NCBI GenBank assembly: GCA_944389895.1
Contig: CALXOA010000008.1
Coordinates: 1 to 64,000 of the forward strand
From: an uncultured Victivallis sp.
GTDB taxonomy: Bacteria; Verrucomicrobiota; Lentisphaeria; Victivallales; Victivallaceae
Reading direction: 5' to 3'
Length of the DNA: 64,000 nucleotides
Part shown: positions 1,233-12,761 of the stretch, one piece after another
How positions within the stretch are numbered: the first letter of the stretch is position 1
Layout: every line of letters starts with the position of its first letter
Made by a program: the position numbers and the translations under genes
Notes under the pieces: generated by a model
What the model was told of the DNA's origin: nothing
Seen by the model: the letters and a program-made list of their open reading frames with translations, nothing else
Databases searched by the model: none

Positions 1233-1355
1233 TCGCCTCGTCTCCAATCAGCTGTTTCCCTCATTCCATTACGATACCCCGCCCGGCCTTTTTTGTCAAC
1301 ATTCCGGGAAACCGGCGAAAACCGGATAATTTTTCATCCTTCGCCTCAACGCAGC

Positions 1356-1383
1356 TTGATTTCAGCGGAAAGGGTTCTATTAT
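1356..1383 (+). promoter_or_regulatory. sigma70-like promoter of the peroxiredoxin gene
   Basis: TTGATT (1356-1361), a 16-base spacer and TATTAT (1378-1383) lie about 70 bases upstream of the peroxiredoxin start, in the gap divergent from the protease gene. Both hexamers are close to consensus and stand out from the GC-rich surroundings. Confidence 0.65.
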
Positions 1384-1451
1384 ATGAAACACAGAGTAAT
1401 TGCCGGAGCGGGAAAACATCTCCGACGGCACAAACAGAAGGAGAAGAACTT

Positions 1452-2045
1452 ATGTCCCTCGTCGCGAAATACGCCCCTGATTTCACTGCGAAATGTGTCA
1501 CTCCCGACAATCTATTTGAAGACTTCACCCTATCGAACCTGCGCGGCAAATATGTGGTGTTGTTCTTTTACCCGATGGATTTCACATTCGTCTGCCCGAC
1601 AGAGCTGGTTGCCTTTGACAACTCCATCGAAAAGTTCAAGGCGCTGAACACCCAGCTGGTTTCGGTCTCGGTCGACTCCGAATACAGCCACTACGCCTGG
1701 AAGATGACCGATCGCTCGAAGGGCGGCATCGGCAAGCTCCGTTACCCGATGGTCGCCGATTTCACCAAGCAGATCAGCCGCGACTACGGCATTTTGCTGG
1801 ACAACTCCGTGGCGTTGCGCGGGCTTTTCATCATCGATAAGGAAGGAGTCGTACGCCATGAGACGGTCAATGATCTGCCGCTCGGCCGTAATGTCGAAGA
1901 GGTGCTCAGAGTTCTGAAGGCTCTCCAGTTCACGGAGAAGTATGGAGAGGTGTGCCCGGCGAACTGGCACGACGGAGCCGAAGGCCTCAAACCAACCGCG
2001 GTCGGAGTCGCCGATTACCTGAACCGGCACGGGAAGGAAGCCTGA
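1452..2045 (+). CDS. typical 2-Cys peroxiredoxin (AhpC/Prx1 type)
   Basis: This 197-aa cytosolic thiol peroxidase reduces hydrogen peroxide and organic hydroperoxides. The peroxidatic Cys48 sits in DFTFVCPTE, and the resolving Cys168 in GEVCPANW, so this is the typical 2-Cys class. Length matches AhpC/Prx1. The frame is open far upstream, but the ATG at 1452 is chosen because AAGGAG lies just before it and homology begins there (SLVAKYAPDF). It has its own promoter and terminator, so it is probably a single-gene unit. No ahpF-type reductase is adjacent; the electron donor is probably a thioredoxin system encoded elsewhere. Confidence 0.93.
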   Translation: MSLVAKYAPDFTAKCVTPDNLFEDFTLSNLRGKYVVLFFYPMDFTFVCPTELVAFDNSIEKFKALNTQLVSVSVDSEYSHYAWKMTDRSKGGIGKLRYPMVADFTKQISRDYGILLDNSVALRGLFIIDKEGVVRHETVNDLPLGRNVEEVLRVLKALQFTEKYGEVCPANWHDGAEGLKPTAVGVADYLNRHGKEA

Positions 2046-2070
2046 TTCCGTTCAGGTTCCTGAAGAAGAA

Positions 2071-2114
2071 GGCGGCGCTTTCCGGAATGGAGAACGCCGC
2101 CATTTTCCTTTTTT
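2071..2114. terminator. terminator after peroxiredoxin
   Basis: A 7-bp GC stem, GGCGGCG (2071-2077) with CGCCGCC (2095-2101), is followed by ATTTTCCTTTTTT. It lies between two convergent genes, but the T-rich tail favours termination of the plus-strand peroxiredoxin transcript. Confidence 0.75.
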
Positions 2115-2127
2115 CATACCGGAAAGA

Positions 2128-2760
2128 TCAGTAACCGTCCGGAGCAGAGGCACAATTCGCCAGATGTGAAGTATCGTTCCAGCAGCCGAGAATCCAGCTT
2201 CCGCCATCGTTCAGAAAGCGGCTCAGCGAAACGTTGCCGATCTGCGGCTGATGCGGCCAGGAACCTGAAAATCCCAGCACATGCCGCAACATCACCCTGA
2301 TCACGCAGCAATGGCTCACCACCAGCACCCTTCCCCCGCGATGACGACGGGCGGCTTCCTCCAGAAAGGCGCCGACCCGCTCCTGCAGCTGCGCCCGACT
2401 TTCGCCGCCGGTGACGGTCATGCCTTCCCGATCCTCGACGAAGCCATCCCACTCTTCCGGGAAAAGAGCCTTTACCTCTGGTACCGTTTTCCCGACCCAT
2501 GCGCCGAGATTCCATTCGCGCAACGCCCGGTCAGGGATGATTTCACACCCCGGCGCGGCAATCCGGGCCGTCGTCATCGCACGATCAAGATCGCTGGCGT
2601 AAACCGCGTCGAAAGACTCTCCGCGGAGCCGGCCGGCCAGCAGTTCCGCCTGCCGGAGCCCCAGTTCATCCAGAGGCACATTGCTCTGTCCCTGAACCAC
2701 ACCGCTCTGATTCGCCGCGGTCCGCCCATGCCGGACCACCCAAAATTCCGTCACCGCCAC
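2128..2760 (-). CDS. histidine phosphatase superfamily protein (phosphoglycerate mutase-like)
   Basis: This 210-aa cytosolic protein belongs to the histidine phosphatase superfamily. The phosphorylated His is in the RHG motif at residues 10-12 (VVRHGRT). The acid region is in ALREWNLGAW, and the second catalytic His is in VVSHCCVIR near residue 150. Such enzymes include cofactor-dependent phosphoglycerate mutases, CobC-type alpha-ribazole phosphatases and broad sugar-phosphate phosphatases. The short length argues against a glycolytic mutase. The GTG start at 2760 is preceded by GGAGGGA at 5-base spacing. It is convergent with the peroxiredoxin gene and divergent from acn. The substrate cannot be told from sequence. 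Confidence 0.85.
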   Translation of the reverse strand: MAVTEFWVVRHGRTAANQSGVVQGQSNVPLDELGLRQAELLAGRLRGESFDAVYASDLDRAMTTARIAAPGCEIIPDRALREWNLGAWVGKTVPEVKALFPEEWDGFVEDREGMTVTGGESRAQLQERVGAFLEEAARRHRGGRVLVVSHCCVIRVMLRHVLGFSGSWPHQPQIGNVSLSRFLNDGGSWILGCWNDTSHLANCASAPDGY

Positions 2761-2912: not shown

Positions 2913-2941
2913 TTGCCGCGAAGGAGTTCCGCTGTTATATT
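2913..2941 (+). promoter_or_regulatory. extended -10 promoter of acn
   Basis: TTGCCG (2913-2918), a 17-base spacer and TATATT (2936-2941) preceded by TG at 2933-2934 form an extended -10 promoter about 50 bases before the acn start. The four-gene run acn-ung-GH78-hisA has no other obvious promoter or terminator, so it is probably transcribed from here. Confidence 0.6.
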
Positions 2942-2990
2942 AATGAAATCTTTTCAAAACAGGGAAATCCCGCTCAAGGAGGAACAGCAT

Positions 2991-4928
2991 ATGGCCAGAG
3001 GCACCGTTGTCCAGAAGATCATCGACGCACATTACGCCGGCGGCGAACGCAAAGTCGGCAAGCCGGTCGCAATCCGGATCGACCAGACGCTCACGCAGGA
3101 CGCCACCGGAACGATGGCTTATCTCGAGCTGGAGGCGATGAATATTCCGCAGGTCAAAACCGAGCTTTCCGTCTCCTACGTCGATCACAACATGATGCAG
3201 AACGGCCCGGAGAACCGCAACGACCATCTTTATCTGCAGAGTGTCGCCAATGCCAAGGGCGTTCGATTCTCGCCGCCCGGCAACGGAATCTGCCACCAAC
3301 TCCACCTCGAGCGCTTCGGAGTACCGGGCAAAACGCTGATCGGTTCCGACTCCCACACGCCGACCGGCGGCGGTATCGGGATGCTCGCCATCGGCGCCGG
3401 CGGCCTCGATGTGGCTCTGGCGATGGCCGGGAAACCGTTCCGCATTCCCTTTCCGAAGGTGATCGGGGTCAGATTGACCAACCGCCTCGCGCCATGGTGT
3501 GCGGCCAAGGATGTGATTCTGACCATGCTTTCGATTCTGACCACCAAAGGCAACGTCGGTTCGATCGTCGAATATTTCGGCCCCGGCGTCGCAACGTTGT
3601 CGGTGCCGCAGCGGGCCACCATCACCAACATGGGTGCGGAACTCGGGGTGACCACAAGTATTTTCCCCTCGGACGATGTAACCAGAAAATTTCTCGAGGC
3701 GCAGGGCCGCGGTGTGGATTTCACCCCGCTAACCGCCGAGCCGGACGCCGAATATGATCAGCTGATCGAAATCGATCTCGCGCAGGTTGTCCCCCTGGCA
3801 GCCTGTCCGTCAAGTCCGGACAACGTCAAACCGATCGCCGAACTCTCCGGCCTCAAGGTCGGTCAGGTGATCATCGGCAGCTGTACCAACTCAAGCTACC
3901 GTGATCTCGCAATGGTCGCCGCCGTTCTCAAGAACCGGAAAGTCAATCCGAATCTCACCCTGGCAATCGCCCCCGGAAGCCGGCAGGTGCTCGAAATGCT
4001 CGCCGCGAACGGCATGCTCGCCGACATCATCGGCGCCGGTGCCCGGATCCTTGAAACCGGCTGCGGCCCCTGTATCGGCCAGGGACAGAGTCCGGCCGAT
4101 GATACCATCAGCGTCCGGACCTTCAACCGGAACTTCGCGGGTCGTACCGGGACTAGGGGAGATCAGGCGTATCTGGTCAGCCCGGAAACCGCGGTTGCCG
4201 TCGCGCTGACCGGGGAGTTTACCGATCCGCGCCGTCTCGGGATCGACTATCCCGAAATCGCCGAACCTGAGAAATTCCTGATCAACGACAACATGATCCA
4301 GCTGCCGACAGGGAAAGGCGAAATCATCCGCAAACGCACAATCGGCCAGCCGCCGATCAACACCGCGCTGCCCGACAAGGTCGACGGCGTGGTCGTCATC
4401 AAGGTCGGTGACAAAATCACCACCGACCACATCATGCCGGCCGGCGTACACCTGAAGCTGCGCAGCAACATCCCGGCCTACTCCAAAGTGGTCTTCGAGT
4501 GTTTCAACGAACCGGGAAAACCCTCCTTCGCGGAACGGGCCGCGGCAGTTCGCGACTCCGGCAAGTCCGGTGTGATCGTCGGTCGTGACAGCTACGGTCA
4601 GGGATCCAGCCGGGAACACGCGGCAATCTGCCCGATGTACCTCGGAGTCAAAGTCGTTGCGGCGCTCGCGATCGAACGGATCCACAGCGCGAACCTCGTG
4701 AACTTCGGCATTCTGCCGCTGATGTTCGCCGATCCCGCCGATTACGACGTCATTGAGGAGAAGGATGAACTTCTGTTCGAAAAACTGCGTGAGCAACTCG
4801 CCGTCGGGGAACCGGTCCATGCGACGCTGCGCAAGGCGGACGGGACTCGACGCGAGATCATCTTCAACCACCGCCTTTCGGCCGAGGACATCCGGATCAT
4901 CCTCGCCGGCGGCATGTTGAATCTCTGA
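2991..4928 (+). CDS. acn: aconitate hydratase (short, Aquifex-type)
   Basis: This 645-aa aconitase interconverts citrate and isocitrate in the TCA cycle using a 4Fe-4S cluster. The three cluster cysteines are in GSCTNSS (about residue 297) and TGCGPCIGQG (about 358 and 361). A swivelling C-terminal domain follows, with the substrate-binding stretch GRDSYGQGSSREHAA. The length fits the short Aquifex-type/mitochondrial-like aconitases rather than the roughly 890-aa AcnA. The ATG at 2991 has AAGGAGG about 8 bases upstream; the longer open frame from 2913 lacks homology. It is the first gene of a tight run, with ung starting 6 bases after its stop. Confidence 0.93.
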   Translation: MARGTVVQKIIDAHYAGGERKVGKPVAIRIDQTLTQDATGTMAYLELEAMNIPQVKTELSVSYVDHNMMQNGPENRNDHLYLQSVANAKGVRFSPPGNGICHQLHLERFGVPGKTLIGSDSHTPTGGGIGMLAIGAGGLDVALAMAGKPFRIPFPKVIGVRLTNRLAPWCAAKDVILTMLSILTTKGNVGSIVEYFGPGVATLSVPQRATITNMGAELGVTTSIFPSDDVTRKFLEAQGRGVDFTPLTAEPDAEYDQLIEIDLAQVVPLAACPSSPDNVKPIAELSGLKVGQVIIGSCTNSSYRDLAMVAAVLKNRKVNPNLTLAIAPGSRQVLEMLAANGMLADIIGAGARILETGCGPCIGQGQSPADDTISVRTFNRNFAGRTGTRGDQAYLVSPETAVAVALTGEFTDPRRLGIDYPEIAEPEKFLINDNMIQLPTGKGEIIRKRTIGQPPINTALPDKVDGVVVIKVGDKITTDHIMPAGVHLKLRSNIPAYSKVVFECFNEPGKPSFAERAAAVRDSGKSGVIVGRDSYGQGSSREHAAICPMYLGVKVVAALAIERIHSANLVNFGILPLMFADPADYDVIEEKDELLFEKLREQLAVGEPVHATLRKADGTRREIIFNHRLSAEDIRIILAGGMLNL

Positions 4929-4934
4929 CGCATC

Positions 4935-5627
4935 ATGCCGGAGCAACTGCCGGAAAACTGGCGGCGCTTTTTCGGGGACGCCGTCGATCAGAACCTCCTC
5001 GACGGCGTGCTCGCGAAGCTCGAGGCAGAGCGGGCCGCCGGGACGGTTTTTCCGCCACCCGGCCGCGTGTTCCACGCTTTTGAGCTGACCGCACCCGAAG
5101 AGGTCCGGGTCGTCCTGCTCGGGCAGGACCCCTATCACGACTTCGGCCAGGCGGAGGGACTCGCCTTCTCGGTGGCGCCGGGAGTGAAGTTCCCGCCGAG
5201 CCTGCGCAATGGTCTCCGGGAATACTCCGACGACCTCCCCCGACCGCTTCCGGAATCCGGTTCCCTTGAGAACTGGGGGCGCGGCGGCGTTTTGCTTCTC
5301 AATGCGGTACTTTCCGTTCGCGCCCATACCCCGGGGAGCCATCGCCATCTGGGCTGGGAGACCGTGACAGACCGGATGATCTCCGTTCTGAGCGGGAAGT
5401 CTCCCCGGCTGGTCTTTATTCTGTGGGGCAACTACGCAATCACCAAAAAGCCGCTGATCGATACGACGCGCCATCTGATCATCGAAAGCGTCCACCCGTC
5501 ACCACTCTCTGCCCACCGCGGTTTTTTCGGCAGTCGCCCGTTCTCACGGGCGGCGGCATACTTCGGCGATTGGCAGTGGCCGGAACTCGCGGAAAACGAC
5601 AATCTGTTCTCCTGCACAGGAAAGTGA
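4935..5627 (+). CDS. ung: uracil-DNA glycosylase
   Basis: Family-1 uracil-DNA glycosylase (230 aa) removes uracil from DNA to start base-excision repair. The catalytic water-activating motif GQDPYH is at residues 63-68. The minor-groove loop motif HPSPLSAHRGFFGSRPF begins near residue 186, and the LLLNAVLSVR segment is also present. Length and motifs are standard for bacterial Ung. It starts 6 bases after the acn stop and ends 7 bases before the rhamnosidase gene, so it is probably co-transcribed with genes of unrelated function. Confidence 0.96.
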   Translation: MPEQLPENWRRFFGDAVDQNLLDGVLAKLEAERAAGTVFPPPGRVFHAFELTAPEEVRVVLLGQDPYHDFGQAEGLAFSVAPGVKFPPSLRNGLREYSDDLPRPLPESGSLENWGRGGVLLLNAVLSVRAHTPGSHRHLGWETVTDRMISVLSGKSPRLVFILWGNYAITKKPLIDTTRHLIIESVHPSPLSAHRGFFGSRPFSRAAAYFGDWQWPELAENDNLFSCTGK

Positions 5628-5634
5628 TGGTATC

Positions 5635-7767
5635 ATGAATCTGGACCATGTCAAATTCATCGCCGCCGCCGAAACCGACGGAGGCGCCCCCTATTTCCGA
5701 GCCGAGTTCACCCTTCCCGCCGCGGCAACCGATGCCGCGCTCGCAATCTGCGGGCTCGGGTTCCACGAAATCTGGCTGAACGGCCATCGGGTGGGAGATC
5801 ACCAGCTCGATCCGATCGTCACCGAATTCGACCGGCGCAGCCGCTACGTGATACACGATGTCACACGATACCTGAAGTCCGGAAAAAATGCGATCGGCGT
5901 GATCCTCGGCACCGGGTGGTACAATTGTCCGACCGCGGATGTCTGGAATTTCGATCACGCCACCTGGCGCGACCGGGTCAAATTCGCGTTGCGCCTGACG
6001 GTCGATGCACACGAGGTGCTGACCACTCACCCGGAATGCTGGAAGGTCAGCTGCGCCGGACCGATCCGGCAGGATTCCATCCGCGAAGGCGAATGCTATG
6101 ATGCCCGCCGGGAGTTCGGCCCCTGGAGTGAACCCGGCTTCGATGATTCCGGCTGGGAGCAGGCGATTCTCGTAAGTCCGCCCGGGGGAGTGCTTGAAGA
6201 ACAGACCTCTCCCCCCTGCCGCGTAACACGTACGATTGAACCTCTTCGACTGAACCGGCTCGAAGGGGGATCCCGGGTCGCCGACTTCGGCGTGAATCTC
6301 TCCGGCTGGTGCCGGATCCGGGTTCGCGGCAAGGCCGGCAGCAGGATTGAGCTGCGTTACGGTGAAAGGCTCCACCCGGACGGCAGCGTGGACAAGGAAC
6401 ACATCGGCAAATTCGTCCTCTCCGGAGAAAACCAGTGCGACCGCTACATCCTCCGGGGGGAGGGCGTCGAGGAGTGGGCACCACGCTTCACCTTCCACGG
6501 GTTCCAGTATTGCCAGATCGACGGAGACGCCGAACTGGTGGCGGTAACGGCGGAATTTGTCCACACCTCATTCGCCGGAATCGGTGATTTCTCGAGTTCT
6601 GACGGAGAACTCAACGCGCTGAACCGGATGGTGCAGGAATCCTACCGCGGTAATTTCGTCGGCATTCCCTTCGACTGTCCCCACCGTGAAAAAAACGGCT
6701 GGACCGGCGATACCCAGCTTGCCTGCGAAGCCGGTCTCTGCAACTTCGATGCCGCCTCCAGCCTCGAACAGTGGCTCGATACGCTGGTCGACTGTCAGCG
6801 TCCGAACGGTCAGCTGCCCGGAATTGCCCCGACCAGCGGATGGGGGTACAACTGGGGAGCCGGGCCGGCGTGGGATGCCGCCCTCTTCGTGATCCCGGAA
6901 ACGATCTATCTTTACACCGGCAGTGAACGTTCCTACCGGAAACACTTCGACGCAATGTTGCGGTATCTCGATTACGCCTGGGAGATGACGGACAATGACC
7001 TCGCCGCCTTCGGACTCGGCGATTGGAACCATGTCGACAATTCAAAAATCGCCCCGGTCGAACTGACCAGCAGTTTCTACCTTTACACCTGCACCCGGCT
7101 GGCTGCAAAATTCGCTACAAGGCTGGGCCGCAGCGGCGATGCTGCCGAACTCGCCTCACGCGCCGAACGGATGCGCAGCGCAATCAACCGCCGTTACTAC
7201 AACGGGTCAGGCAGTTATGCCCACGATGAAATGACGGCACTCGGAGGAGCCCTCTACCACGAGGTCGCACCGGAATCCGAACGACAACAGATCGCCGACC
7301 GGCTCGCAGAGCTTGTTCGTGCCAACCGTTACAAACCGTATTTCGGCATCCTCGGAGCGAAAGCGGTACCGCGCGCACTCGCCGATTACGGTCATATCGA
7401 CACGGCATACCGGTTGCTGACCCAGCCGGAGTATCCGGGCTGGATCCACTGGTTGCGTCAGGGAGCGACGACGCTCTGGGGGAACTGGCATGGAGAGGCG
7501 TCACGGAATCATATCATGTTCGGTGACGTCAGCGCCTGGTGTTTCCGTTATCTCGGCGGCCTGACGCCGGACGAGCAACATCCGGGCTTTGCCGGGCATG
7601 TGACCCTGCGCCCGAACCCGGTGCCGGAACTCGACTGGTTCCGGATGTATCACGACACTCCGGCAGGACGGATCGCACTCGAGTGGAGCAACCTCGACGG
7701 CGATTTCAAGGTAAAGGTCACCGTGCCGGAGGGAATCCAATACCATCTGGAGATGCCGGAAAAATGA
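5635..7767 (+). CDS. alpha-L-rhamnosidase (GH78)
   Basis: This 710-aa protein has the GH78 layout. N-terminal beta-sandwich domains (LGFHEIWLNGHRVGDHQLDP) lead into an (alpha/alpha)6 catalytic barrel with the family signature DCPHREKNGWTGD at about residues 347-359; the conserved Glu there is the expected general acid. A C-terminal beta-domain ends the chain. There is no signal peptide, so it should release terminal rhamnose from oligosaccharides or glycosides in the cytoplasm. It is somewhat shorter than many GH78 enzymes. Its stop overlaps the hisA start in an ATGA, giving translational coupling to an amino-acid biosynthesis gene. Confidence 0.9.
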   Translation: MNLDHVKFIAAAETDGGAPYFRAEFTLPAAATDAALAICGLGFHEIWLNGHRVGDHQLDPIVTEFDRRSRYVIHDVTRYLKSGKNAIGVILGTGWYNCPTADVWNFDHATWRDRVKFALRLTVDAHEVLTTHPECWKVSCAGPIRQDSIREGECYDARREFGPWSEPGFDDSGWEQAILVSPPGGVLEEQTSPPCRVTRTIEPLRLNRLEGGSRVADFGVNLSGWCRIRVRGKAGSRIELRYGERLHPDGSVDKEHIGKFVLSGENQCDRYILRGEGVEEWAPRFTFHGFQYCQIDGDAELVAVTAEFVHTSFAGIGDFSSSDGELNALNRMVQESYRGNFVGIPFDCPHREKNGWTGDTQLACEAGLCNFDAASSLEQWLDTLVDCQRPNGQLPGIAPTSGWGYNWGAGPAWDAALFVIPETIYLYTGSERSYRKHFDAMLRYLDYAWEMTDNDLAAFGLGDWNHVDNSKIAPVELTSSFYLYTCTRLAAKFATRLGRSGDAAELASRAERMRSAINRRYYNGSGSYAHDEMTALGGALYHEVAPESERQQIADRLAELVRANRYKPYFGILGAKAVPRALADYGHIDTAYRLLTQPEYPGWIHWLRQGATTLWGNWHGEASRNHIMFGDVSAWCFRYLGGLTPDEQHPGFAGHVTLRPNPVPELDWFRMYHDTPAGRIALEWSNLDGDFKVKVTVPEGIQYHLEMPEK

Positions 7768-8582
7768 ACCTGTCGCCACATGCGGAATTTCGTCCCTGCA
7801 TCGACCTCCACCATGGAGAAGTCAAGCAGATCGTCGGCAGCACCCTCAGCGATGATGACTCGACGGTGCGCACAAACTTCGTGGCCAGCCGTGATTCAAG
7901 CTATTTCGCCGCACTCTACCGGCGGGACAACCTGACCGGCGGCCATGTGATCAAACTCGGCCCGGGCAATGACGAAGCCGCAAAACGCGCGCTGGCCGCC
8001 TGGCCGGGCGGCCTGCAGGTCGGCGGCGGAATCACTGCGGAAAATGCCGCCGGATGGCTGGAGGCCGGGGCGGCACAGGTGATCGTGACCAGTTACATCT
8101 TCCGTGACGGAGAACTCAGGCACGACCGTCTGGAAAAATTGTTCCGGGAAACCGGACGCGACCACCTCGTGCTCGATCTCTCCTGCCGCCGACTGCCGGA
8201 CGGCAGCTACAGAATCGTCACCGACCGCTGGCAGAAGTTCACCGACTGGACGGTTGACCGGTCGACGCTGCAGGAACTCTCGGCTTACGCGACGGAATTT
8301 CTGGTGCACGCGGTGGACGTCGAAGGCAAGCAATCCGGCATCGACCGCGACCTTCTGGCGCTGCTGGCCGGGGCGTCGCCCATTCCCTGCGTCTATGCCG
8401 GGGGAATCGCCGGATGGCAAGACATCGAGACGGTGGAAAACATCGGGCGGGGGCGTATTCACTATACCGTCGGTTCGGCGCTGGATCTCTTCGGGGGCCG
8501 GCTTTCTTATGCGGAATTGGTCGAACACAGCCGACAGAGACGGGTCAACTGCGGCGAAACGCCTCGTCATACTTCCGCCTGA
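7764..8582 (+). CDS. hisA: eukaryote-type HisA (ProFAR isomerase)
   Basis: This 272-aa protein is 5-ProFAR isomerase, a histidine-biosynthesis step. It matches the eukaryotic (yeast HIS6) branch rather than the usual bacterial HisA. It begins with FRPCIDLHHGEVKQIVGSTL and continues with SSYFAALYRRD, HVIKLGPGNDEAAKRAL, LQVGGGI, VIVTSYIF, LVLDLSCRR, FLVHAVDVEGKQSGID, CVYAGGI and VGSALDLFGG, in the same order as HIS6. Catalytic Asp positions are in CIDL and HAVDVEG. The ATG overlaps the rhamnosidase stop by 4 bases. No other his genes are nearby. The last 38 bases overlap the convergent recD2 gene. Confidence 0.9.
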   Translation: MNLSPHAEFRPCIDLHHGEVKQIVGSTLSDDDSTVRTNFVASRDSSYFAALYRRDNLTGGHVIKLGPGNDEAAKRALAAWPGGLQVGGGITAENAAGWLEAGAAQVIVTSYIFRDGELRHDRLEKLFRETGRDHLVLDLSCRRLPDGSYRIVTDRWQKFTDWTVDRSTLQELSAYATEFLVHAVDVEGKQSGIDRDLLALLAGASPIPCVYAGGIAGWQDIETVENIGRGRIHYTVGSALDLFGGRLSYAELVEHSRQRRVNCGETPRHTSA

Positions 8583-10737
8583 ACTCCCTCATCCGTTCGG
8601 TCAGCAGCGAGAAGCGCGGCTCCTGACGCGAGTTGCCGACCGCGATCTCGACCGCTCGGCGGCTGCCGATCAGAATCAGCAATTTTCGGGCGCGGGTCAT
8701 CGCAGTATAGAGCAGATTGCGCTGCAACATCATATAGTGTTGTGACAACAGGGGAAGCACGACCACCGGAAATTCACTCCCCTGTGATTTGTGGACGGTC
8801 ACTGCATAAGCGGGAGTCAGCTGATCAGCCTCATCCATGCTGTATTCCACCTGCCGTCCTCCTTCAAACACTACGGAAAAACTCTTCTCCCTGGATTGGA
8901 TCCTCACAAGGCGGCCGAGGTCGCCGTTGAAAACGTTCTTATCATAATTATTGCTGATCTGCATCAACTTGTCGCCTGCCTTGTAGACCCTTTCGCCAAA
9001 TTTGAACTGCGGCTTGTCACCGGGATTGAGCAACGCCTCAAGCCGTTCGTTGATTGCGGCCGTACCACAGACGCCGCGATTCATCGGCGTCAAGATCTGC
9101 ACATCGTTGACCGGATGAAAACCGAACCGGGCCGGAATCCGCTCCGCCACCAGCTTTTCGATTGTCGCAAGCGCCTTCTCCGGATCGTCCTGTTCGATCC
9201 AGTAGAAATCCGTCAGACCTCCTCCCGGAGGCGTTTTTTCCGGAAGCAGCCCCCGGTTGACCCTGTGAGCATTGATGATGATCCGGCTGTCGGCGGCCTG
9301 CCGGAAGATCCGTACCAGCCGCGTCACCTGAAACCAGCCGGATGCGAGAAAACTTGCAAGGACGGTTCCGGGGCCGACCGAAGGAAGCTGATCGGCGTCT
9401 CCGACCAGCACCAGAGAACATCCCGGTTTCACCGCCCGCAACAACGCCTGGGCAAGCAGCAGATCCAGCATTGAAACTTCGTCGATAATCAACAGATCGT
9501 ACGGCAACGGATCATCCGCCCCGTACCCGAACCTGCCGGTATTCGGATCGTACATCAACAACCGGTGCAGCGTCCTGGCGGTCAGTCCGGTAGATTCCGA
9601 CAGCCGTTTTGCAGCACGGCCGGTCGGCGCGGCAAGCCCGATGTTCAATCCTGCCGCCCGGGCTCGGGCTACGATCTCCCCGACCACCGTGGTCTTACCG
9701 ACGCCGGGACCACCGGTGATGATCGACAGCGGTGTCCGGCAGACGGTTTCGACCGCCTGTTCCTGTTCGGCATTCAACCGGATGCCGCTCCCGCCGCCGG
9801 CCGGACGCAGCCGACTGCCGGCGAACTCCTTCACCGTTGCCAGTCTCGCAACCAGTTCCGGCACCTCCGTCTCGGCGCGGGCAAGCAGCGGCGTATAGAT
9901 CATGCCATCGAGTCGGCGCAGCAGATGACGCTCCATCGCCCGGTTGACTCCGTTGGCAGCGGCTTCCGGCGGTTGCCCGGTCAACTCGGCAGTCAGCCGG
10001 ATCAATTCCGGTTCGGGGCAACAAACATGCCCGGAGTCAATCAGTGTATTCAGAGAGTAAACCGCCGCCGCGGTCAGCCGATCGGGGGACTCCGGCGCAA
10101 TGCCGAGCGCCCGGGCGATCTCATCCGCCTTCAGAAAACCGATTCCATCCACCTCTTCGGCAAGTCGGTAGGGATTCTTGCGTACCACCTGTGCCGCCTC
10201 GTCGCCGTAACGCCGGAAGAGTCGCGCACAGAAAGCCGGAGATATGCCGATTCCCTGAAGAAATATGAAGCTGTCCCGTCGCGATCCGGAAGAGCGCCAC
10301 GCCTTGACGATCTGCTCCGCCCGGGCGGCACCGATGCCGGGAACTTCGCGCAGCCGCCGGGAGTTGTTGTCCAGCACGGTCAACGTCTCATCACCGAAAT
10401 AATCGACGATCAGGGCGGCCATCTTCTTTCCGATTCCGGGAATTGCGCCGGATCCCAGATAACGCTTGATTCCTTCGGCGGTCGACGGCAGGCTGATCCG
10501 GAACGATTCCACGCGGAATTGGCGCCCGAATTCGGCGTGGCGGTCCCAATATCCCTCCAGTTCGAGAAACTGTCCGGCAGACAGGCCGCACAGAGAACCG
10601 CGAACCGCATGCTCATTCCCGGCGGGATCGACGATCTTCAAGACCGCAAAAGCCCCGTCATCGCTCTCGAACACCACCCGCCGGATCTCCCCGCGCAACG
10701 TCGTCCGGGTCAATCCGGGAATCAGCTCGCCGCTCAC
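8545..10737 (-). CDS. recD2: RecD2-type ATP-dependent DNA helicase
   Basis: This 730-aa helicase has an N-terminal OB-like region, helix-hairpin-helix segments (LREVPGIGAARAEQIV) and a superfamily 1 motor. The Walker A is GGPGVGKTT near residue 340; LLIIDEVSMLDL is Walker B, LVGDADQLPSVGPG is motif III, and TVHKSQGSEFPVV is the C-terminal SF1B motif. This is the RecD2 family found without RecBC, a 5'-3' helicase in DNA repair. I chose the GTG at 10737 because it overlaps the upstream gene stop as GTGA; the longer in-frame extension lacks homology. It is probably co-transcribed with the upstream membrane-protein gene, and its 3' end overlaps hisA. Confidence 0.9.
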   Translation of the reverse strand: MSGELIPGLTRTTLRGEIRRVVFESDDGAFAVLKIVDPAGNEHAVRGSLCGLSAGQFLELEGYWDRHAEFGRQFRVESFRISLPSTAEGIKRYLGSGAIPGIGKKMAALIVDYFGDETLTVLDNNSRRLREVPGIGAARAEQIVKAWRSSGSRRDSFIFLQGIGISPAFCARLFRRYGDEAAQVVRKNPYRLAEEVDGIGFLKADEIARALGIAPESPDRLTAAAVYSLNTLIDSGHVCCPEPELIRLTAELTGQPPEAAANGVNRAMERHLLRRLDGMIYTPLLARAETEVPELVARLATVKEFAGSRLRPAGGGSGIRLNAEQEQAVETVCRTPLSIITGGPGVGKTTVVGEIVARARAAGLNIGLAAPTGRAAKRLSESTGLTARTLHRLLMYDPNTGRFGYGADDPLPYDLLIIDEVSMLDLLLAQALLRAVKPGCSLVLVGDADQLPSVGPGTVLASFLASGWFQVTRLVRIFRQAADSRIIINAHRVNRGLLPEKTPPGGGLTDFYWIEQDDPEKALATIEKLVAERIPARFGFHPVNDVQILTPMNRGVCGTAAINERLEALLNPGDKPQFKFGERVYKAGDKLMQISNNYDKNVFNGDLGRLVRIQSREKSFSVVFEGGRQVEYSMDEADQLTPAYAVTVHKSQGSEFPVVVLPLLSQHYMMLQRNLLYTAMTRARKLLILIGSRRAVEIAVGNSRQEPRFSLLTERMREFRRKYDEAFRRS

Positions 10738-12761
10738 AGCCGCGCCTCCGGGCGGAGTTCGAAGAAGCCGTAACCGGGTTCCACGATCTTCGGGATGAAA
10801 TCCTCGGGATGATCCAGCGCCCACTGCAGCTCCAGGCTGTGGTTCGGAACGTTGAAGGTGCGCGGATCAACCACCAGATACCGTACCCCCGCCCGGCGCA
10901 GCCGCCGCAGGAACTCCGGATATTCACAGGGAGTGCGCATCTCCTCGATCGATCGGTAGGCGTCAAGCTCCGTCCGACCGGAACGCGATACCGGAATCGA
11001 AACGACCCGATTCTCATAATCGTCGCCGAGGTAGAGATAAAAGAAACTGCCGAGGTAGGCGATCACCGCTCCGCTGCCACCGGTTTCGACGGCGATCTGC
11101 CGCCGGGCCGCCTCATCCGCGGCGGAAATGAAATTCTGACGCAATATCGAGGAGCTGGCATTGGCGCTGGCAAGCGTCCCGCCGATGTAAAGAGCGACCC
11201 CCACTGCCGCAACCGCAGTAGCCAGCCGCGCGGATTTGACCATCCCTCTGCGCCAGAGTTCCAGCAATGCGGCAAAACCGGCCGTCCAGAGCAAAATGCC
11301 TGTTCCATGGACACCGTACTCCATCTGGCTGTACGACCCGGCCCAGGCCAGAAACAAGGCGAGCAAGGCGATCCCCCACTCCCCGTACCGCAACCGGGCA
11401 AACAATGAAAAGAATCCCATCCCGGCCGCAGCGGCAAGCAACGCCAGCGGAATGATCTGCCGCGCCTGGGCGTTCGCAGGGAAAAGGGCGATTTGCAATA
11501 ATCCGAGCAGAATGATACCGCCGGCCAGACACCACAACACCCGCCGCGCACAGCGGAGCCGGCGGCGCAACAGGAACGGAACCGCAAATGCCAGCACGAC
11601 AAACGCCAGCAGAATCACACCGTTCCAGAATCCGACCCCGTTGCGGCTGCCGTCGACAAAAAAACGCCAGATCGCCGGGATTCGCCAGCCGATCGTCGAA
11701 TACGGGATTTCCATCCAGGCGTTGAAAAGATCAAAATTCCCAACCTTTACCCGGACCGGAAAAACCGGATTGCCGTAGACAATCCAGTTTGCAATATAAC
11801 AGGGGGCGCCGACGACGGCAAACGCAAGCATACTCCAGCAGACGCCGCGGCGACAACGGGGAACCAGCAGCCAGACTGCGCCGCCGAACAGCAGAAATGC
11901 CGGCGGAGCCAGAAGCAATCCGAGATTCTTCGTCCCGGCTGCCATGCCGAATCCCGCTCCAGCCAGCAGAAAGAAGCCGATATGGCGACGCCGGGCGGCA
12001 ATCAGCAGAAACACCACCCCCGCCAGCAGAAACGTACCGGTGAACAAGTCTGTATTGGCCACGGCCGCACTGCGGAAAATCACTCCGGAACAGGTCATGA
12101 CCAGCGCGGCAGCAATCGCGCCAACCCTCGGAAACCCGGCTGCCAGCCCGCCGGCAATCACCAGTACGGCGGCGACCAGCAGGGCGAAGAACTGGAAATT
12201 CTTGGCAAAAAAATCAATGATGAGGGGAGCCATGTTCCACGCATAAATCAATTCCCCGTAACATGGATATGCCGCCGTAACGTAACCGGTCTGCCCGATC
12301 CGTTCCAACTGCCCGGTGGAAAGCCAGACCGCGGGATAATAGAGATGGTAGAGAAGCGAGTCGGACCCCACCACCGGAAGCATACCGAACATCCGCCACT
12401 GATAACAGACGAAACCGAGCAGCACGGCAAGCATCAGAATCTCGGGCGGAGTGAGCCGCAGCGGAGGAAGTTTCGGAATCGCCGTCCGACAGGAACGCTC
12501 ACCTGCCAGCGCCACGGCGGAAACCGTCAGCGCGGCAAAAAACATGACCGTGGGATTCATGACCCCGAACAACCCGCAAATTCCCGGCAGCGCAATCATC
12601 AGCAACAGCCACAACACTCCGACGGCGGCGAAAAACTCAAAATGATTCGCCACCCGGCAACGCCGGGCCCAGATCACGGCAGGGAAAGCGAGAAAAAGAT
12701 GCCAGATGAGTTGAATCAAAACCATGATCCCACCGTAGAAAATCACCATCCGGCTGTCCAT
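10734..12761 (-). CDS. polytopic membrane protein, GT-C glycosyltransferase-like
   Basis: This 675-aa protein has roughly 12 or more predicted membrane segments and a soluble C-terminal portion of about 130 residues. The stretch VVGSDSLLYHLYYPAVWLSTG after the third or fourth membrane helix resembles the first periplasmic loop of GT-C (ArnT/PMT-like) glycosyltransferases, where an acidic residue is catalytic. It may transfer sugar from a polyprenyl carrier on the outer face of the inner membrane, but the substrate cannot be told and it may be a family of unknown function. The ATG at 12761 follows GGGAGGAGGAG. recD2 overlaps its stop, so the two form one unit. Confidence 0.55.
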   Translation of the reverse strand: MDSRMVIFYGGIMVLIQLIWHLFLAFPAVIWARRCRVANHFEFFAAVGVLWLLLMIALPGICGLFGVMNPTVMFFAALTVSAVALAGERSCRTAIPKLPPLRLTPPEILMLAVLLGFVCYQWRMFGMLPVVGSDSLLYHLYYPAVWLSTGQLERIGQTGYVTAAYPCYGELIYAWNMAPLIIDFFAKNFQFFALLVAAVLVIAGGLAAGFPRVGAIAAALVMTCSGVIFRSAAVANTDLFTGTFLLAGVVFLLIAARRRHIGFFLLAGAGFGMAAGTKNLGLLLAPPAFLLFGGAVWLLVPRCRRGVCWSMLAFAVVGAPCYIANWIVYGNPVFPVRVKVGNFDLFNAWMEIPYSTIGWRIPAIWRFFVDGSRNGVGFWNGVILLAFVVLAFAVPFLLRRRLRCARRVLWCLAGGIILLGLLQIALFPANAQARQIIPLALLAAAAGMGFFSLFARLRYGEWGIALLALFLAWAGSYSQMEYGVHGTGILLWTAGFAALLELWRRGMVKSARLATAVAAVGVALYIGGTLASANASSSILRQNFISAADEAARRQIAVETGGSGAVIAYLGSFFYLYLGDDYENRVVSIPVSRSGRTELDAYRSIEEMRTPCEYPEFLRRLRRAGVRYLVVDPRTFNVPNHSLELQWALDHPEDFIPKIVEPGYGFFELRPEARL

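Follow-up and report, generated by a model that had tools for sequence, protein, structure and literature searches.

The eukaryote-type HisA of an uncultured Victivallis species is ordinary for its family and probably of bacterial origin

Introduction

Two profile families describe the HisA proteins relevant here: hisA_euk (TIGR02129), to which yeast HIS6 and plant HISN3 belong, and ordinary HisA (TIGR00007). The family notes of TIGR02129 reportedly name Fibrobacter as a bacterial holder, and the Ruszkowski group is said to have published a paper on Medicago HISN3 in 2024. The catalytic residues are presumably two Asp, D14 and D138 in the protein examined below. In the accessible parts of the open-licence literature, no description of eukaryote-type HisA in bacteria was found, and the available portions of PMC8305728 and PMC4462073 do not treat it. 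For other histidine genes, the available part of one article reports that delta-proteobacterial HisHF clusters with that of plants and proposes plants as donors (Fani 2007, PMC1963479), while excerpts of another trace plant HISN2 to Myxococcales-like Deltaproteobacteria (PMC8102479).

The gene described here lies in the window, the whole stretch of 64,000 nucleotides that was analysed, from an uncultured Victivallis sp.; among named organisms, Victivallis vadensis DSM 14823 is closest to it.

Results and Discussion

The window encodes a HisA of the eukaryote type

The gene and its surroundings in the window are as follows.

2913-4928, plus strand: aconitase-family gene, named by eye with no family search
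4935-5627, plus strand: ung (uracil-DNA glycosylase), from a Pfam match made on the copy in genome G112
5635-7767, plus strand: GH78 alpha-L-rhamnosidase-type gene, 710 aa, with four GH78 Pfam domains above cut-offs
7749-7752, plus strand: GGAG in the 3' end of the GH78 gene, putative ribosome-binding site of hisA, located by eye
7764-7767, plus strand: ATGA, four-base overlap of the hisA start and the GH78 stop, read from the sequence
7764-8582, plus strand: hisA, predicted eukaryote-type (TIGR02129) ProFAR isomerase, 272 aa, from profile and structure-database matches
8545-10824, minus strand: RecD2-like helicase ORF, convergent, named by eye, sharing 38 bases with the 3' end of hisA

A preliminary description had likened the product of the 272-aa frame to yeast HIS6 on the strength of four motifs. 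The frame is present, without an internal stop, and all four motifs, HVIKLGPGND, LDLSCRR and HAVDVEG among them, occur in its translation. Of the NCBIfam models, TIGR02129 gave the best match, over the full length (341.7 bits, 3.1e-102, cut-off 229.3). The ordinary HisA model TIGR00007 (cut-off 228.95) reached 56.4 bits and the HisA-TrpF/PriA model TIGR01919 (cut-off 306.45) 21.2 bits; PF00977 matched with 86.4 bits. The scores thus bear out the assignment to the eukaryote type and not to ordinary bacterial HisA. The closest PDB chains were 9fcf (278 bits), presumably a Medicago chain, and 2agk (216.5 bits), which we take to be yeast HIS6, and the next chain reached 36.3 bits. Because the scores are this high, a chance match is not in question. 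BLAST identity was 46% to 2agk, 51% to 9fcf and 77% to the V. vadensis protein, and about 24% over most of the length to ordinary HisA of the same phylum.

Nothing in the window protein sets it apart from TIGR02129. In an alignment of 73 eukaryote-type rows (yeast, plant and bacterial members), nearly all invariant residues were found in it, for example C12, D14, H16, Q22 and D138, and further S140, C141, W156, H182 and E187. D14 was present in 72 rows and D138 in all 73; only the 9fcf chain departed at D14, which might, as a guess, reflect an engineered mutation. The window protein and ordinary HisA agree in the PF00977 domain, in the Asp D14 and at several glycine positions. The Asp that ordinary HisA carries at the S140 column is missing from the window protein, where an Asp stands two columns earlier instead (D138).

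The gene is the only hisA found in its genome

In the window genome, PF00977 gave five matches, three of them full: the window gene and one protein each on contigs C66 and C73. The C66 protein is HisF (379.5 bits, above the HisF cut-off) and the C73 protein a HisF-like paralogue (254.2 bits, below it). The preliminary description had proposed looking for a conventional hisA, and a search of the genome with TIGR00007 gave no match above cut-off, so the window gene is the sole HisA found there. A second, ordinary hisA was rejected as a candidate, the other full PF00977 matches being HisF and HisF-like. The C73 gene (L002:1444-2208, minus strand) adjoins an aldolase-like gene, as judged by eye, and similar HisF-like proteins occur in V. 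vadensis, G002 and G006.

The location of the other his genes had also been raised as a check. Clustering was not found: hisA, hisF and hisI lie on separate contigs (C8, C66 and C69, respectively). The single-contig relative G147 likewise has hisA at 1.31 Mb, hisF at 2.27 Mb and hisH at 2.96 Mb, far apart. HisF of Victivallis is unfused. A search for HisH gave none above cut-off in the window genome (G000, 94% complete), while HisH was above cut-off in 39 of 60 family genomes and in seven of nine genus genomes (all but the window genome and G304). As most congeners have it, its absence here may reflect an assembly gap or a loss, both being possible. V. vadensis is predicted to be histidine-prototrophic in the available part of one study (PMC9026213). 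The window HisA would work as a ProFAR isomerase in histidine synthesis, in a genome where HisH was not found.

The eukaryote type is widespread in bacteria and excludes ordinary HisA

All 47 sampled genomes of the window's family (f1) had a match to TIGR02129 above cut-off, as did 122 of the 288 genomes of its phylum, Verrucomicrobiota. The type was also present in 91/100 genomes of Fibrobacterota (the phylum of locus L023), 10/148 of Desulfobacterota (that of L009) and 9/149 of Planctomycetota (that of L010), and in none of 14 control genomes. Its frequency in the family, the phylum and Fibrobacterota means that the window gene is no stray from a eukaryote. The impression that such a protein is odd for this bacterium, conveyed by the preliminary description, therefore does not hold; the window HisA is a known HisA type, ordinary for its family.

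Ordinary HisA was above cut-off in 139 of the 288 genomes of the phylum, and no genome of the 288 had both types above cut-off, so that the two replace one another. Neither type was found at cut-off in 27 genomes, or in 19 if eight near-cut-off matches are taken as ordinary. A step in a near-universal pathway is thus divided between two mutually exclusive enzyme lineages within one bacterial phylum.

The window protein groups with its own family

The first tree had 84 rows: 71 of the 101 eukaryote-type loci that had been extracted, a further two intermediates (described below), two eukaryotic chains, the window protein and eight ordinary HisA. The 71 were hand-picked and included L137, itself an intermediate; same-genome second copies, near relatives and partial loci were dropped. 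The ordinary rows were eight of 12 loci, with L063, L066, L126 and L127 left out (L126 reads as HisF-like). The second tree was made without the eight ordinary rows and without L050 and L051, which had long branches.

Eukaryote-type and ordinary HisA were split with support of 100/100 in the first tree. The window row and its family formed part of an 18-row clade with support of 96/92. One row of another family of the order also belonged to this clade, as did four rows of f26, a family further removed, a hint of transfer among bacteria. A position within ordinary HisA, which the preliminary description had named as contrary to its reading, was rejected when forced on the window row (p-AU = 1.94e-05). 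When the window row was constrained to group with all eight ordinary rows, p-AU was 0.080. A shift of the window row to the root of the eukaryote-type side satisfies this constraint, which therefore tests another thing; the deep placement of the row is not firm under it. At the root of this tree two long branches come together, which calls for caution in reading it.

Planctomycetota carry intermediate proteins

Three HisA-like proteins of Planctomycetota, of about 240 aa, were intermediate between the types.

L137:1501-2223: intermediate HisA-like protein
L150:1475-2197, minus strand: intermediate HisA-like protein
L151, within 1338-2501, minus strand: intermediate HisA-like protein

They scored 151-167 bits on hisA_euk, under its cut-off of 229.3, and were 33-36% identical to the window HisA; L137 reached 97.7 bits on the ordinary HisA model. 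Like the eukaryote type, they have an N-terminal FRPCID, H182 and E187; unlike it, they have no insert around residues 28-38, and their Asp stands at the ordinary column. In the first tree they grouped with the eukaryote-type side on a self-defined branch of mixed support (94/19). These proteins look like a bridge between ordinary and eukaryote-type HisA, and the existence of intermediates points to an origin of the type within bacteria.

By eye, L137 has uvrB-like and glycosyltransferase-like genes as neighbours, and L150 and L151 have TatA/TatC-like genes.

Eukaryotic HIS6 and the link to HisHF

The trees held only two eukaryotic HisA rows, yeast and plant. In the first, the Planctomycetota row L128 was the partner of yeast (96/81), and plant stood with four rows from Desulfobacterota (85/80). 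In the second, yeast lay in a 38-row clade that excluded plant (99/94), beside a Myxococcota row (91/72), and the plant row was placed without resolution. Yeast and plant as one clade gave p-AU = 0.0947 with ordinary HisA and 0.00899 without it. Two entries of HisA into eukaryotes are hinted at by the trees and these p-AU values, and are not established. The separate positions of the two rows among bacterial ones lean towards bacterial donors of eukaryotic HIS6. The preliminary description had left the direction of transfer open; it now leans from bacteria to eukaryotes, on a sample of two eukaryotic sequences.

Seven of the ten Desulfobacterota having eukaryote-type HisA (all but G386, G421 and G449) encode HisF within a frame of 526 aa or longer, its HisF stretch lengthened, as does one (G321) of 20 without that HisA, these 20 being hand-picked out of 138. 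The association gave a Fisher p of 4.2e-4; G340, whose lengthened HisF lies in a frame of 330 aa, was not counted, and G416 gave only partial matches. The HisHF fusion was confirmed by model in G306 and G307, and the G306 protein matched PDB 1jvn, which we take to be yeast HIS7 HisHF, over its full length (611.9 bits).

L113:1498-3093, minus strand: HisHF fusion of the eukaryotic HIS7 type, Desulfobacterota genome with eukaryote-type HisA
L114:1492-3063, minus strand: HisHF fusion of the eukaryotic HIS7 type, Desulfobacterota genome with eukaryote-type HisA

A more detailed history can be offered tentatively, as a possibility that we rather doubt than believe. Eukaryotic HIS6 would have come from bacteria, possibly on more than one occasion. 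The source of plant HISN3 would be Desulfobacterota-like, with HIS7-type HisHF, possibly as a package, and yeast HIS6 from a Planctomycetota- or Myxococcota-like branch, with the Planctomycetota intermediates marking how the type split off from ordinary HisA.

GH78 precedes hisA in most genus genomes compared

The GH78 gene scored far below the cut-offs of two NCBIfam equivalogs (381.5 of 1720 and 316.1 of 1800), and is a neighbour with no part in histidine synthesis. The overlap of its stop with the hisA ATG, reported earlier, is confirmed as ATGA, and the exact ATGA recurs in G002, V. vadensis and G011, and in G070 after GH78 loss. CTGGAG, near the GGAG site, was seen by eye in all six genomes keeping the GH78 tail. 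The hisA gene is probably translated from a ribosome-binding site in this tail. Scanning 4800-8700 for promoters and terminators turned up two promoter-like (shuffles, 0.7) and five terminator-like (3.3) elements, none informative.

Gene context was compared in seven of the nine genus genomes, with G303 and G304 outside the sample. The flanking order acn-ung-(GH78)-hisA was conserved, the true start of the aconitase-family gene probably lying downstream of the ORF start. GH78 was directly upstream of hisA in five of the seven (the window, G002, V. vadensis, G011 and G064), and ung in the other two (G070 and G112). The stretches fetched from 14 further genomes, belonging to the family and the order, contained no GH78 homologue that could be found. 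In other genera, the nearest long ORF before hisA was a cyclophilin, PLP-dependent enzyme, protein kinase, MraZ or glyoxalase-family gene, as found in a scan of six proteins, one of them the ung of G112, with ORFs sometimes on the strand opposite to hisA.

Between ung and hisA, G070 keeps the end of GH78, with a 24-base exact match to G002 (0/300 shuffles).

L074:6771-6855: scar of GH78 loss in G070, a remnant of the gene's 3' end ahead of hisA

G070 was sister to G002 (100/99) in an 11-row tree of aconitase, UNG and HisA, the root of which was weak (46/68). A GH78 tail in G070, together with a sister carrying the gene, indicates that GH78 was lost at the G070 site. Late insertion of GH78 between ung and hisA was rejected, since the remnant and the tree favour loss there. 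At this site, and so for at least one congener, hisA would have been kept with the GH78 end, whose CTGGAG possibly serves it. In G112, which has no remnant, either loss or primary absence may account for the lack of GH78.

Weighing the explanations

Taken together, the data very probably reflect the regular HisA lineage of the family, vertically kept, with the GH78 adjacency as a genus-level gene order and with a type that probably arose among bacteria. The eukaryote-type lineage would be the family's ordinary HisA, standing in for the usual bacterial one, and eukaryotes would probably have received it from bacteria. A recent horizontal transfer of a plant or fungal HIS6 into this bacterium or genus could explain the high similarity to the plant and yeast proteins, and a gut habitat would, as general knowledge has it, put plant and fungal DNA nearby. 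It is nonetheless scarcely credible, since the type is found in every sampled genome of the family, in most of the Fibrobacterota sample and in other genomes of the phylum, and since the window row is closest to its own genus and family, with yeast and plant as single long branches elsewhere; on distribution and tree together, a passage from a eukaryote to this genome is rejected. An ancient transfer out of eukaryotes, giving rise to the whole bacterial lineage, is a better-founded but still unlikely proposal. It finds a parallel in the plant-to-delta-proteobacteria transfer argued for HisHF (Fani 2007, PMC1963479, in the part available), and the enrichment of HIS7-type HisHF in Desulfobacterota with eukaryote-type HisA (7/10 vs 1/20, hand-picked) would suit it. 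Against it, the two eukaryotic rows are placed apart from each other within a broad range of bacterial ones, and the three Planctomycetota intermediates point to an origin inside bacteria; the one-eukaryotic-clade test, differing with and without ordinary HisA, does not settle the matter.

Beside an origin among bacteria and vertical inheritance in the family, the GH78 neighbour has to be accounted for. The preliminary description saw a coupling of hisA to glycan catabolism, which as a functional operon would mean co-regulation with rhamnoside use, or an isomerase acting on a sugar product. Shared strand, the ATGA overlap and an order kept in five of seven congeners speak for such a pair, and the order, with the exact ATGA in four species, is a point against purely incidental adjacency that could reflect selection on co-expression. 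The order is, however, kept in 5/7 genomes of the genus and 0/14 outside it, the gene upstream varies among genera, and one congener retains a GH78 remnant beside an intact hisA. The role as the genome's only HisA, with exclusion of ordinary HisA across the phylum, fits a housekeeping function. A functional pair is thus judged very improbable from the neighbour survey and the G070 remnant, and the claimed coupling finds no support. The adjacency is most likely gene order and not pathway, arisen by chance and perhaps used for translation, with no metabolic link apparent.

For the window itself these findings carry little weight, since its HisA is the normal one of the family; more weight falls on the wider pattern. 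The parts of interest are the distribution, the mutual exclusion, the Planctomycetota intermediates and the HisHF association. With the fungal and plant HisA lineage widespread in bacteria, the origin of the eukaryotic histidine pathway becomes directly testable by a tree fully sampled for eukaryotes.

One genome of the survey, G156, has two eukaryote-type hisA copies about 1.9 kb apart, with identical scores (G156:C42:48040-50726).
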